Assembly (NCBI GenBank): GCA_030041415.1
Contig: JASHNX010000119.1
Location: forward strand, 1 to 35,365
Direction: 5' to 3'
DNA from: Candidatus Sulfotelmatobacter sp.
Lineage (GTDB): Bacteria > Acidobacteriota > Terriglobia > Terriglobales > Acidobacteriaceae
DNA length: 35,365 nucleotides
The translations under genes were made by a program, and so were the position numbers. Below, piece by piece: positions 13,590-17,907 of the stretch (within the stretch, counting starts at the first letter, position 1; every line of letters starts with the position of its first letter). The notes beneath the pieces were generated by a model. That model saw nothing but the letters and a program-made list of their open reading frames with translations. It had not been told where the DNA came from and ran no database searches.

Positions 13590-14858
13590 CTATCCCCGCC
13601 CTACGCCGACGTATTCAAATCCCATGGCGCGGAGACGGACGGCATCGAGCAGATTCTTCGTATCGACGATGATGGGTTTCTTGAGCAGGTGTTTAATGCG
13701 GTCGAAGTCGAGAGCGCGGAATTCGGGCCAGCCGGTGCCAACGACCAAGGCATCCATGCCTTCGGCGGCCGCATAGGCTGAATCGCAATAGCGTACCGAG
13801 CCATTCAGGCGAGTCTTAGCTTCCACGAGCGCGACTGGATCGTACGCCTTGACCCGCGCGCCTTTCGCCACCAGGGTTTCAGCTAGTCGAATCGCCGACG
13901 ATCCTGCAACAGAATTGGTGTTGGGCTTGAATGCCAGTCCAAGAATTCCGACGTCCTTGTTCTCGACCGAGTTCAACGCCGTGGCGATCTTGTCGACCAG
14001 GCGATCGGCGAGCGTGTGGTTCACATCGCGAGCAGCGCTGAGAACTTTGAGCGGCAAGCCGTTTTTCTGCGCGAGATTGGCGAGAGAATCCATGTCGGAC
14101 TCGGCAAAAACGCCACCCATGCCCGCTCCCGGCTGCAAGCAGCGCGGAGCGATTTTCTTGTCCAGTCCAAGCGCGAGAGCGAGGCTGACCGCATCGGCTC
14201 CCACTCGCTCACAAAGAGCCGCAACTTCGTTGATAAAGGAAATTTTGGTAGCGACAAACGCAGTCGCTGACTCCCGCACCAGTTCCGCGGTTGCCTGATT
14301 AGTGACGATGACCGGCACGCCGCGCATCACGAGCGGATGGAAAATCTGCTTGAGAATCTGCACCGCTTCACTGGAGGTCGAACCAAGAATGAGCCGGTCC
14401 GGCCAGTTGAAATCTTCCACCGCGCAACCATCCGTGAAAAACATGGGCTGAGAAACGATGGTTCCCAGCAGGCCGTTATCCTTGAACAATTTTTCGAGCG
14501 TGTTCGCCGTGCCGACAGAAACCGGAGTCACCACGATCAGGATTGGAGGCTTGGCAGCAAGGCGCGCGATCCGCATGGCAACATCGGTCAGATTTTCGGC
14601 TCCATCCTCAGCGAGAAAAATGACCTGAGTTTTTCGCGCGAACGATTCAATGTCGGTGGAATAAGCCAGTCGGCCGGCTCGCACGTTTCGCCGGATCACT
14701 TCCTTTAAATTCTTCTCAAAAAAGGGAATGTTCCCCTGGGCCATTTCGACCATGCGGGTTCGATCGGGATGACAACAGGAGACCGGAGTGCCAAAATCTG
14801 CCAAACATGCCGAAATCACCGTTCCGAGATAACCCGAACCGTAGACCCCGATCTGCAT
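13590..14858 (-). CDS. UDP-glucose/GDP-mannose dehydrogenase family protein lacking catalytic residues (predicted pseudoenzyme)
   Basis: 422 residues from the preferred ATG (MQIGVYGSGYLG), which has GGAGG 7-8 nt upstream; the longer GTG frame to 14888 is less likely. All three family domains are present: the Rossmann NAD-binding domain (GSGYLG), the central helical domain (FVATKISFINE) and the C-terminal UDP-binding domain (GILGLAFKPNTNS). The active site is not. The catalytic Cys in GFGGSCFPKD is replaced (GMGGVFAESD, 246-255: Phe251 for Cys, Ser254 for Lys). The NPEFLREG segment reads QPMFFTDG (137-144, Met139 for Glu). The catalytic Lys and Asn of ELxKxxxN are Arg195 and Thr199. The TDDxRxSP sugar-binding motif is TNSVAGSS. 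UDP-sugar oxidation is therefore unlikely; nucleotide binding may persist. Confidence 0.85.
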   Translation of the reverse strand: MQIGVYGSGYLGTVISACLADFGTPVSCCHPDRTRMVEMAQGNIPFFEKNLKEVIRRNVRAGRLAYSTDIESFARKTQVIFLAEDGAENLTDVAMRIARLAAKPPILIVVTPVSVGTANTLEKLFKDNGLLGTIVSQPMFFTDGCAVEDFNWPDRLILGSTSSEAVQILKQIFHPLVMRGVPVIVTNQATAELVRESATAFVATKISFINEVAALCERVGADAVSLALALGLDKKIAPRCLQPGAGMGGVFAESDMDSLANLAQKNGLPLKVLSAARDVNHTLADRLVDKIATALNSVENKDVGILGLAFKPNTNSVAGSSAIRLAETLVAKGARVKAYDPVALVEAKTRLNGSVRYCDSAYAAAEGMDALVVGTGWPEFRALDFDRIKHLLKKPIIVDTKNLLDAVRLRAMGFEYVGVGRG

Positions 14859-15711: not shown

Positions 15712-16086
15712 ATGCAAAATCGGGGAGCAGCGCGGCCTGGCGGCGCACCCCGTTCGCGCAGAAAAAGGCCCATCAACGCTGTCTATCTCACCGTTCGCCA
15801 CTCTTTGTCTTCATCGTTTTCAATAGTTTGGAGAATCTGCTCTTCGTGTACAAGGTTAAACCTAAAAGGACCGAAAAAGGCAACCAGCGTCGCTCTGGTC
15901 ACGGGTCAGTCAGGTACTTCGGACGACTCTGCATCTGAGGTCCAGCCTGCTCAGCCGGGAGAAGCTAATACCTTTCCCTCTGATTATCCGTATGTCGCTC
16001 AAGACGATCGTGGCTTTGAGGGCGGACCGAGGGCGACTGCGGATTCGGAAGTGAGATACAGGAAGGTAAATGTCTCCTGTAAATAA
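15712..16086 (+). CDS. Hypothetical ORF, uncertain
   Basis: 124 residues, unrecognised. The N-terminus is very Arg-rich (ARPGGAPRSRRKRP) and the C-terminal half is Ser/Asp/Pro-rich and low complexity. The last 88 nt overlap the 3' end of the encapsulin gene on the other strand. It fills an otherwise empty stretch of 365 nt (15634-15998). In favour are a TATAAT 45 nt upstream and AGGA 5 nt before the ATG. Against are the lack of any recognisable domain and the antisense overlap. It may be non-coding. Confidence 0.3.
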   Translation: MQNRGAARPGGAPRSRRKRPINAVYLTVRHSLSSSFSIVWRICSSCTRLNLKGPKKATSVALVTGQSGTSDDSASEVQPAQPGEANTFPSDYPYVAQDDRGFEGGPRATADSEVRYRKVNVSCK

Positions 16087-16817
16087 AGGCGGACATTCGC
16101 CTCAGTGTGGCTCAAATAACCGATGGAAGCGTCCTGGCCGATGTGAAAATCAAGGTCTCCGCCGCGGGTTGTCACGACGAATGCGCCTTCAATCGCGGGA
16201 GCCCAGATGATTTTGCCTTCAACAAGTCGTTTGACGTGTTCGAGAACTGGATACCCGTAATCACTGGTCTCAGCGAGCTCGGTGTAAGCCTCGGCGCCAA
16301 GGAGAACGGCATAGGGACCGTTGACCCCGACCAGGCGCAGTTGACTTAAGGCTTGTGCAAAGGCCTCCGGATATTTACGCACGTCGCCGGGAAGAGAGTT
16401 CTTCGGATTGCTGGTGCCCTGGCGAATTCCGACAATTCCGGCTGCTTCGTATCCTTCGAAAATGGCGCGGTCTTCGGCGAAAGCCAGAGAGCGTGCGGCA
16501 TCTTTTGCGGGTTGCCAATCAGAATCGTTCGCGCCGCGTTCGACGTCGTCAATCATCTGGCGGTCAAGTTCGAAAGGAACGCGCAACTCGACGAGGGCCT
16601 TGACCTCTCGCTGTCGCGCGGTGATGCTCTTGTCGTGTGAGGCGATCGGGCTCACGTGGCCGGTGCCAATGGCTGAGAGAGCTACTCCTGCCGGTCCATG
16701 AACATCTACAACGCGGCGGCCGGCAAGATAGCGCTTGAGAGTGCGTGAAGTCTCCTCCTCGATTTGAGCCCACGCGGCATCGGAAATCGGAGCCAGCTCG
16801 CGGTGCAGGTTATTCAT
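15999..16817 (-). CDS. Encapsulin shell protein, family 1 (linocin M18/CFP29-like)
   Basis: 272 residues, the normal length for family 1. It begins MNNLHRELAPISDAAWAQIEEE and carries the characteristic GRRVVDVHGPAGVALSAIGTG, the P-domain/E-loop region ARQREVKALVELRVPFEL, and the C-terminal ASIGYLSH..NVRLYLQETFTFLYLT segment, all typical of HK97-fold encapsulins. It self-assembles into a protein nanocompartment. Its start overlaps the end of the DyP peroxidase gene by 8 nt, and that peroxidase has a targeting peptide, so cargo and shell are translationally coupled. The compartment likely protects against oxidative stress. Confidence 0.95.
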   Translation of the reverse strand: MNNLHRELAPISDAAWAQIEEETSRTLKRYLAGRRVVDVHGPAGVALSAIGTGHVSPIASHDKSITARQREVKALVELRVPFELDRQMIDDVERGANDSDWQPAKDAARSLAFAEDRAIFEGYEAAGIVGIRQGTSNPKNSLPGDVRKYPEAFAQALSQLRLVGVNGPYAVLLGAEAYTELAETSDYGYPVLEHVKRLVEGKIIWAPAIEGAFVVTTRGGDLDFHIGQDASIGYLSHTEANVRLYLQETFTFLYLTSESAVALGPPSKPRSS

Positions 16818-17907
16818 GGCAATTGTCTCCTTTCAAGGAACCGATGCCCAGCGAACCATCGTTGGATGGCGCGGTGGATGCGGAGGTTTCAGTCGACGAC
16901 GAAGAGGTCGGATCACTCTGTGCTTCAGATGATGTTGCGGGAGAAGATTGAACGGGCGAAACGCTATCGAGGAACGTGGCGGTCGGAACGAAGAAAAGAC
17001 TTCCGGTGACCGCGGTGCTGAAATCGAGGATGCGATCGTAATTGCCGGGCGGGCGGCCGATGAACATGTTTTCAAGCATCTGTTCGATGGTGCGGGGCGA
17101 GCGGCTATAACCGATGAAATACGTGCCGAATTCGCCGTGGCCGGGCCGGCCGAAGGGCATGTTGTCGCGGAGGATTTTGATTTCGCGGCCGTTTTCTTCG
17201 ATGGTGTTTAGAGCGTTGTGAGCGGAGGTGGGCTTCACGGAATCGTCGAGTTCGATGTCCGAAAGTTTGGTGCGCCCGATGATTTTTTCCTGGGCTTCGG
17301 TCGGAATATTGTTCCAGGCGTCGAGGTTGTGAAGATACTTTTGCACGATGACGTAGCTTCCACCGCCAAAAGCCGGATTTTCGTCGCCGATGAAAACCGC
17401 GTCGGAGGCCACACTGCCCGTGGGGTTTTCGGTGCCGTCCACGAAGCCAAGGAGATCGCGTTCGTCGAAGTAGCGGAAGCCGTGGACTTCGTCGGCCGTG
17501 GTAACTGCGCCCGCGAGACGCGTCATGATCTGCGTGGCGAGCTCGAAGCAGAGGTCCATGTGCTTGGCGCGAATGTGAAAGATCAAATCGCCAGGCGTGG
17601 AAACAGCATGCCGTGGACCGGAGCGAAATTCCCGAAAGGGATGAAGTTCAGCAGGTCGCGGTGAGCCGAAAAGGCGATCCCAGGCATTGGAACCGAAACC
17701 CATGATGCATGAAAGCGCCCCATCGAGGGCGCGAAAACCGACGGAACGCAGAAGGGCGGAAACATCGGCGCAAAGCGAGAGAACTGTATCGCGACTTGCG
17801 TCGCCGGGATTGATCGTGACGACAAGAAAAATTGCCGAGGCAGTGAGCGGCGATGAGACGAGCTGCGAGATCCCGGATGTCTGGCCGCTGATGGTTTCGG
17901 ACGCCAT
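16810..17907 (-). CDS. DyP-type haem peroxidase, encapsulin cargo
   Basis: 365 residues. The DyP signature GFVDGTENP (154-162, catalytic Asp157), the proximal haem ligand candidate His230 (PTSAHNA) and the distal Arg247 (KILRDNMPFG) are present, so it should be active with H2O2. The catalytic domain ends near 316. A Ser/Thr/Pro-rich linker (about 317-349) leads to GSLGIGSLKG (351-360), the canonical encapsulin cargo-loading peptide, and a short tail DNCHE. The stop overlaps the encapsulin start by 8 nt. No strong Shine-Dalgarno is visible before the ATG. A small ORF and mnmA lie upstream on the same strand. Confidence 0.95.
   Translation of the reverse strand: MASETISGQTSGISQLVSSPLTASAIFLVVTINPGDASRDTVLSLCADVSALLRSVGFRALDGALSCIMGFGSNAWDRLFGSPRPAELHPFREFRSGPRHAVSTPGDLIFHIRAKHMDLCFELATQIMTRLAGAVTTADEVHGFRYFDERDLLGFVDGTENPTGSVASDAVFIGDENPAFGGGSYVIVQKYLHNLDAWNNIPTEAQEKIIGRTKLSDIELDDSVKPTSAHNALNTIEENGREIKILRDNMPFGRPGHGEFGTYFIGYSRSPRTIEQMLENMFIGRPPGNYDRILDFSTAVTGSLFFVPTATFLDSVSPVQSSPATSSEAQSDPTSSSSTETSASTAPSNDGSLGIGSLKGDNCHE

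Follow-up and report, generated by a model that had tools for sequence, protein, structure and literature searches.

A nucleotide-sugar dehydrogenase homolog of Terriglobales with a replaced and fixed active site, linked to a 2H phosphoesterase gene

A gene in the window, the whole stretch of 35,365 nucleotides analyzed here, encodes a protein that belongs by sequence to the nucleotide-sugar dehydrogenase (NDP-SDH) family and in which the nucleophile and the Lys, Asn, Thr, and Glu close to it have been exchanged for other residues. The replacements are fixed among its orthologs and held under selection, they are restricted, within the genome samples searched, to one family of soil bacteria, the window's own in Terriglobales, and the gene is linked to an upstream gene encoding a 2H phosphoesterase. 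The reading we favor, with a probability of roughly 0.55, is that the protein is a lineage-specific, repurposed non-dehydrogenase with a rebuilt nucleotide-sugar pocket that shares a process with the phosphoesterase.

The gene lies on the minus strand (14858..13590) and encodes 422 residues without an internal stop, from an ATG at 14858..14856 to a TAG at 13592..13590, with the sequence GGAGGG located 6 bases 5' of the ATG. The first-pass annotation, which left the strand unstated, had given the coordinates 13590-14858 correctly, and its description of a clean frame of 422 codons behind a good ribosome binding site was also accurate. The source is a draft genome of 4.8 Mb that is 95.6% complete. 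Three Pfam domains were identified in the order typical of the family, all scoring above cut-off, namely the NAD-binding (PF03721; 87.6 bits, cut-off of 27), central (PF00984; 86.7 bits, cut-off of 25.4), and UDP-binding (PF03720; 102.7 bits, cut-off of 30) domains. The protein also exceeded the cut-off of TIGR03026, the NCBIfam model for the nucleotide-sugar dehydrogenase subfamily (280.3 bits versus 189.8), and fell below those of the equivalog models for TuaD (325.8 versus 700 bits) and AglM (249.1 versus 670 bits). Among solved structures, it is closest to UDP-glucose dehydrogenases (UGDHs), with 4a7p the top match (E = 1.5e-86). The three-domain fold and the dinucleotide motif GSGYLG, both described as kept in the first-pass annotation, are indeed retained, as seen from the three Pfam domains and from Gly7 and Gly9, each present in 113 of 114 orthologs (one row has a gap). 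The features of the gene and of the adjoining phosphoesterase gene are listed in Table 1.

Table 1. Coordinates of the homolog, its altered and retained sites, and the linked gene in the window
Feature	Position	Strand	Basis
Putatively repurposed NDP-sugar dehydrogenase homolog	13590..14858	-	Three Pfam domains and TIGR03026
2H phosphoesterase (LigT/YjcG-like), 181 residues	15088..15633	-	PF13563, 84.6 bits (cut-off, 27)
Dinucleotide-fold motif GSGYLG, residues 7-12, kept	14823..14840	-	G7 and G9 in 113/114, G12 in 87/114
Site of shortened VGTPPxxDGxADL loop, residues 84-87 (E-D-G-A)	14598..14609	-	D85 fixed; Gly in relatives
Pro112, replacing catalytic Thr118 (S. pyogenes UGDH)	14523..14525	-	114/114 orthologs
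Residues 137-145, QPMFFTDGC replacing NPEFLREG(S/T/A); C145 new and invariant	14424..14450	-	Ortholog alignment
R195 and T199, replacing catalytic Lys204 and Asn208	14262..14276	-	Ortholog alignment
CLQPGAGMGGVFAESD, residues 240-255	14094..14141	-	C240 for Phe; F251 for nucleophile Cys260
Residues 240-255, continued	14094..14141	-	E253 for Pro; S254 for Lys263; D255 (Asp264) kept
Residues 311-320	13899..13928	-	K311 (UDP-diphosphate Lys320) and S320 retained; NAD-pyrophosphate Arg327 replaced by A318
K401, replacing Arg of DxRN motif	13656..13658	-	Alignment to canonical sequences

Residue counts refer to 114 distinct orthologs, and positions in the family follow the numbering of the S. pyogenes UGDH. 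According to PMC4794789, 18 residues, for which roles are given, are invariant across 229 NDP-SDHs. Eleven of the 18 are kept in the window protein, and seven (Thr83, Ser117, Thr118, Glu141, Lys204, Asn208, and Cys260) are replaced; all 18 are retained in each of 37 canonical relatives, taken as the best matches within the family itself and in others of the phylum. Thr118, Glu141, Lys204, Asn208, and Cys260 were not found in any of the 114 orthologs, and Thr83 and Ser117 were found in only 19 and 5, respectively. The nucleophile Cys260, present in 37/37 canonical relatives, is Phe251 in all 114 orthologs. Asn208 and Thr118 have likewise become Thr199 and Pro112 in every ortholog, and Lys204 is Arg195 in 113, with His in the remaining one. 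For the corresponding human enzyme, PMC3184952 assigns roles to Thr131, Lys220, Asn224, Cys276, and Asp280 and describes residues 265 to 280 as wrapping UDP-glucose. Other family residues have been kept, including Pro140, Glu201, Asn219, and Gly258 (114 orthologs each), Gly257 (112), Asn287 (110), and Gly12 (87). The statement in the first-pass annotation that every catalytic motif is altered therefore held for motifs but not for individual residues, since the general base Asp264 (D255 here) is kept in 102 orthologs, Lys320 on the UDP diphosphate (K311 here) in 114, and Tyr10 in 104.

The motif changes first annotated were all present on alignment to solved UGDHs, a check that had been proposed with them: GFGGSCFPKD reads GMGGVFAESD, NPEFLREG reads QPMFFTDG, ELxKxxxN reads ELVRESAT, and TDDxRxSP reads TNSVAGSS. 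The VGTPPxxDGxADL loop is approximately nine residues shorter than in canonical relatives. At Arg244, through which the partner subunit contacts the sugar, 101/114 orthologs have Lys and 13/114 keep Arg, and Glu145 is mostly lost. Over the 18 invariant positions, the losses cover the nucleophile and the pair of residues at the reacting carbon, together with the Glu that assists in positioning one of this pair and the contacts to the nicotinamide ribose. Retained are the general base, the UDP-diphosphate Lys, the turn adjoining UMP, and the fold. Orthologs that had regained the catalytic residues, the counterexample raised in the first-pass annotation, were sought, and none of the 114 has Cys at position 251 or Lys at position 195. 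An alternative alignment placing the catalytic Cys and Lys elsewhere was also ruled out, as residues 236 to 255 align with canonical sequences without gaps, other than a one-residue gap in a few orthologs, and the motifs stay replaced. Two new cysteines are near-invariant (C145 in 114/114 and C240 in 113/114, with Ser in one ortholog); they occupy columns other than that of the nucleophile, and it is possible that one represents a moved nucleophile.

To compare conservation, 35 canonical sequences were set against 34 orthologs; 119 columns of the canonical set had a conservation of at least 90%. In the orthologs, 62 of these columns were kept, 43 were unfixed, and 14 were fixed as another residue (V11L, L13T, F66Y, G85D, T112P, R142T, K195R, N199T, V226L, G229A, F240C, C251F, P253E, and R401K). 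Six of 10 catalytic or ligand positions were among the switched columns, compared with 8 of the 109 others (Fisher's exact test, P = 1.4e-4, for a list of positions chosen by the authors); the presence on this list of Phe265 and Arg442 of the human enzyme relies on roles that we partly assume. Across all 114 proteins, D85, P112, C145, R155, T199, Q242, F251, and K311 are invariant; E253 is present in 106 and varies in 8, and D255 varies in 12. Mere decay would drift, and by this pattern of fixation the pocket was rebuilt and then held. Using the Nei-Gojobori method on all 78 pairs of 13 close orthologs, dN/dS ranged from 0.011 to 0.068 (median, 0.042); these values are rough because dS was close to saturation (median of 1.23 in the same pairs). 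The claim that the gene is not decaying was thus strengthened by the proposed dN/dS check and by the 114 distinct orthologs that share the replacements. A pseudogene or sequencing artifact would account for the loss of catalytic residues and for nothing else; with frames open in the ortholog rows listed, dN/dS values of about 0.04, and 114 distinct orthologs from many assemblies, it was ruled out, and we regard its likelihood as negligible.

The homolog has diverged between genomes nearly as the live UGDH has. Among 10 genome pairs (including 89.3% identity for the homolog versus 88.3% for the UGDH, 59.2 versus 61.2%, and 58.4 versus 65.7%), it diverged slightly faster, its identity being lower in seven pairs with a gap that did not exceed 7.3 points. 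A maximum-likelihood tree of 71 rows places the putatively repurposed proteins in a clade with support of 100/100 on a stem of 1.42 changes per site, and all of the changes would appear to have arisen on this single branch. The nearest canonical relative of the clade is unsettled in the tree, where L187 has support of 81/26 and L143 sits on a long branch. The latter (G025:C5) is a divergent NDP-SDH with Cys and Lys intact that is encoded in a carrier genome, and its position near the clade could be due to long-branch attraction or could mark a real sister.

To identify how widespread the homolog is, 150 genomes of the window's family within Terriglobales were searched. At least 69 carried an ortholog, with 57 to 100% identity or as a contig-edge fragment with 62 to 79% identity; the other matches listed in these genomes were at 40% identity or less, and carriers were told apart by eye. 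A profile of 33 orthologs gave 720 to 794 bits for full-length members, 542 and 587 bits for two contig-edge fragments, and at most 435 bits for everything else. In a phylum sample of 396 genomes, of which at least 44 belong to the window's family, no ortholog was found outside that family, the best outside match reaching 434.7 bits versus 720 or more for members, and the catalytic motifs were all intact in the 26 best nonfamily matches. A sister family in the same order yielded canonical-level matches only and no ortholog in 14 of 14 genomes (54 to 98% complete). In a pattern scan of named records, the one search that extended beyond the phylum, the best 80 of 113 relatives were all Acidobacteriota by title, with near relatives among Terriglobales that included "Candidatus Sulfotelmatobacter"; of the 114 distinct orthologs, 80 occur in named records that have no family label. 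One carrier (L138) is a closed genome of 5,650,368 bases.

The two sides of the ligand site have fared differently. In PMC4794789, the NAD+ side-chain contacts of NDP-SDHs include Asp29, Thr83, Lys263, and Arg327; Thr83, Ser117, Thr118, Lys263, and Arg327 are placed on the nicotinamide ribose and pyrophosphate side and Asp29 at the adenosine ribose. The window protein keeps none of the four contacts Asp29, Thr83, Lys263, and Arg327, and these are kept in 22, 19, 0, and 0 of the 114 orthologs, respectively. From this we infer that normal NAD binding has been lost; NAD binding of some kind is less likely, though still conceivable because the GxGxxG fold is kept. NAD sensing, as offered in the first-pass annotation, sits poorly with these counts and with those for Ser117 (5) and Thr118 (0). 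On the other side, Lys320 at the UDP diphosphate (K311) and Gly257 at the 3'-OH of UMP, which is G248 in 112/114 orthologs, are necessary and not sufficient for nucleotide-sugar binding. Such binding has probably been retained; it is not assured, because the sugar site is altered at Arg244 and Glu145. A predicted AlphaFold model, for which 38 close sequences (the window protein and 37 orthologs) were used, had a mean pLDDT of 76.3 and a pTM of 0.63, with pLDDT below 50 at residues 140 to 152, 231 to 239, 243 to 252, and 311 to 320, i.e., the pocket loops. The 50 best Foldseek matches shown were UGDHs (best E = 4.6e-34). Against solved UGDHs, the rmsd was approximately 20 Å and the TM-score approximately 0.4 to 0.5, the domain arrangement differing in this low-confidence model.

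The gene directly upstream of the homolog, on the same strand and separated from it by 229 bases in the window, is a 2H phosphoesterase on the basis of two HxT/S motifs and a PF13563 score above cut-off. Both motifs take the HxT form (HLTL and HLTI), and both His residues are invariant in 30/30 aligned sequences. Linkage was examined at 101 loci, taken from distinct orthologs with at least 6,000 bases, a set that leans to the window's genus. The phosphoesterase gene was found upstream, on the same strand and within 9 kb, at 86 loci: within 600 bases at 79 (one of these adjoining pairs overlaps since frames were taken from stop to stop) and at 0.9 to 4.5 kb at the other seven. Four of the 15 loci without it have at most 508 bases of upstream sequence. 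Because of the lean toward one genus, the count was repeated by genome. Both genes occur in 61 genomes; in 52 of these (39 of 41 genera) they lie within 600 bases of each other, in 2 they share a contig at a greater distance, and in 7 they sit on different contigs. The 150 family genomes comprised 61 with both genes, 8 with the homolog only, 10 with the phosphoesterase only, and 71 with neither, a co-occurrence with a Fisher P value of 2.3e-22 that ignores shared descent. The link is therefore strong and not obligatory, as 8 of 69 carriers lack a strong phosphoesterase match and 10 of 71 genomes with the phosphoesterase lack the homolog. A remnant of the homolog was sought within approximately 6 kb on each side of the phosphoesterase gene in 9 of these 10 genomes; none was found, and the surroundings varied.

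The phosphoesterase resembles two solved proteins in profile matches and in its pair of HxT motifs, namely, Bacillus subtilis BSU11850 (2d4g; E = 2.5e-12), which is listed as a hypothetical protein and which we take to be YjcG, and a plant cyclic phosphodiesterase (1fsi; E = 2.1e-6). It differs from the YjcG and LigT/ThpR types (E. coli LigT presumably being ThpR) in scoring below the equivalog cut-offs of PRK13679 (53 versus 129 bits) and of TIGR02258 (27.9 versus 65.7 bits), the latter being the RNA 2',3'-cyclic phosphodiesterase equivalog. Six genomes were searched with PF13563, and all five that have the linked gene carry a second family member elsewhere; in the window's genome, this second 2H phosphoesterase lies at G000:C278:27293-27721 (59.1 bits). 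Each of two phosphoesterase frames (G021:C56:3049-3576 and G145:C314:5085-5612) contains one TGA, with the G021 homolog open, and the phosphoesterase may be breaking down in these two genomes. In another genome, the sequence upstream of the homolog includes a short match to the phosphoesterase end (G041:C200:8024-8188), and a nearly full copy is found on another contig; this could be either a broken-up ancestral pair or an assembly gap.

The window's genome also contains a canonical UGDH (G000:C147, locus L002). It belongs to the same family as the homolog and shows similar divergence between genomes; it differs in that its motifs are intact, the two proteins are only 37% identical, and they stand apart in the tree. 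One form that the regulatory role considered in the first-pass annotation could take is that of a dead paralog acting on this live enzyme through mixed oligomers, in the manner of a prozyme. The canonical UGDH with intact motifs in the same genome suits this idea, and dead paralogs acting on a live partner are described for other systems (PMC5201418). The homolog resembles one of these, the T. brucei AdoMetDC prozyme, in being a conserved homolog that has lost catalytic residues. It departs from such paralogs, however, in occurring in two genomes without a live NDP-SDH above cut-off. These were found among six carriers picked for low earlier counts and searched with TIGR03026: in G060 (2.2 Mb, 100% complete) and G091 (98% complete), the homolog was the only match above cut-off, the others scoring 19 to 23 bits, and the remaining four carriers each have at least one canonical-level match. 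As G060 and G091 are near-complete drafts, it is possible that a gene was missed, but it would need to have been missed in both. Homolog and canonical UGDHs are also just 34 to 37% identical. With two near-complete drafts in which the homolog is the sole NDP-SDH above cut-off, acting on a live UGDH does not explain the protein in general, and we consider this role improbable. About equally improbable, to us, is a dehydrogenase whose chemistry or cofactor has changed, such as one performing a two-electron oxidation, where the family's working enzymes carry out a four-electron oxidation of an NDP-sugar with NAD+, or one using NADP in place of NAD: the dinucleotide fold is kept and D255 and Y10 mostly so, but the NAD contacts are almost entirely gone, with Thr118, Lys263, and Arg327 absent from all orthologs and Ser117, Thr83, and Asp29 present in few.

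In the reading we favor, an ancestor on one long branch would have lost the catalytic Cys, its Lys, Asn, and Thr partners, and the NAD contacts, and would have acquired a new fixed pocket set consisting of Pro112, Arg195, Thr199, Cys145, Cys240, Gln242, Phe251, Glu253, and Lys401, a rebuilt pocket since held under strong selection in Terriglobales. NAD-dependent oxidation of UDP-glucose would thereby have been lost. With the NAD side gone and with both the UDP-diphosphate Lys and the glycine turn near UMP still in place, the protein may bind a nucleotide sugar, or something closely derived from one, and leave it unoxidized, acting as a sensor, carrier, or scaffold. Some redox activity or NAD binding is still conceivable because D255, Y10, and the GxGxxG fold survive. 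That the homolog and the upstream 2H phosphoesterase act in one process is a guess. The fixed new polar residues would suit an enzyme of other chemistry equally as well as a binding protein, and it is possible, with a lower probability than we give the favored reading, that the rebuilt pocket acts on a nucleotide sugar by chemistry independent of NAD. For example, C240 or C145 could serve as a nucleophile, or R195, E253, and D255 in acid-base roles, and the product could perhaps be one that the 2H phosphoesterase opens. The pocket is as fixed as catalytic residues would be (C145, Q242, T199, and F251 in 114/114, C240 in 113, and E253 in 106), D255 is mostly kept, and the phosphoesterase upstream has both HxT motifs. 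Fixation also fits ligand binding, however, no match points to a reaction or substrate, position 240 is Ser in one ortholog, and variation is seen at E253 (8 of 114) and D255 (12 of 114). More doubtful still is a specific non-redox enzyme class on the UGDH scaffold, built on C240, C145, R195, E253, D255, and K311 with the NAD chemistry gone. As 2H enzymes act on cyclic phosphates, one could guess that a sugar cyclic phosphate is made and then opened by the phosphoesterase; if true, the homolog and the phosphoesterase would constitute a two-step pathway of nucleotide-sugar processing or repair in Terriglobales.

Over its whole length, the window protein is homologous to UDP-glucose 6-dehydrogenases of the TuaD/UgdG type (NF047673; 4a7p, 3gg2, and 2y0c-e), from which it differs in falling below the TuaD cut-off, in the replacement of the catalytic Cys, Lys, Asn, Thr, and Glu and of the NAD contacts, and in its shorter VGTP loop. 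It is thus of the same family by sequence and, by its defining residues, not a working member. Naturally inactive or repurposed proteins of the UGDH family were sought in open-licence literature and none was found, which is weak evidence of absence. Calling the homolog a sugar dehydrogenase, as is usual, is probably incorrect, because the reaction center has been swapped for a different and equally fixed set of residues. Family models would nonetheless assign the name nucleotide-sugar dehydrogenase to these proteins, as the window protein and the listed orthologs exceed the TIGR03026 cut-off with the nucleophile absent, and deducing UDP-glucuronate synthesis from the homolog would be a mistake, most clearly in genomes that offer no other candidate. 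The homolog appears to offer a clean natural example in which one active site has given way to another, likewise fixed, with the family sequence kept and many live relatives at hand, and would make a good subject for studying how a catalytic pocket is reused.

No further neighbor family was found at more than 18 of the 101 loci, leaving aside open reading frames that overlap the homolog gene. Linkage to the window's other neighbors was rejected, as the encapsulin, the DyP peroxidase, an aminotransferase, and two hydrolases were each matched at 0 to 7 of the 101 loci. A known defense system was likewise set aside, neither the homolog nor the phosphoesterase having a PADLOC match, and a promoter and terminator scan of the pair of genes gave nothing above chance. 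The encapsulin shell protein (Linocin_M18) and the DyP-type peroxidase, which together were near the homolog at 0 of the 101 loci of other genomes, lie side by side at 15999-17907 on the minus strand of the window and form an ordinary nanocompartment pair.
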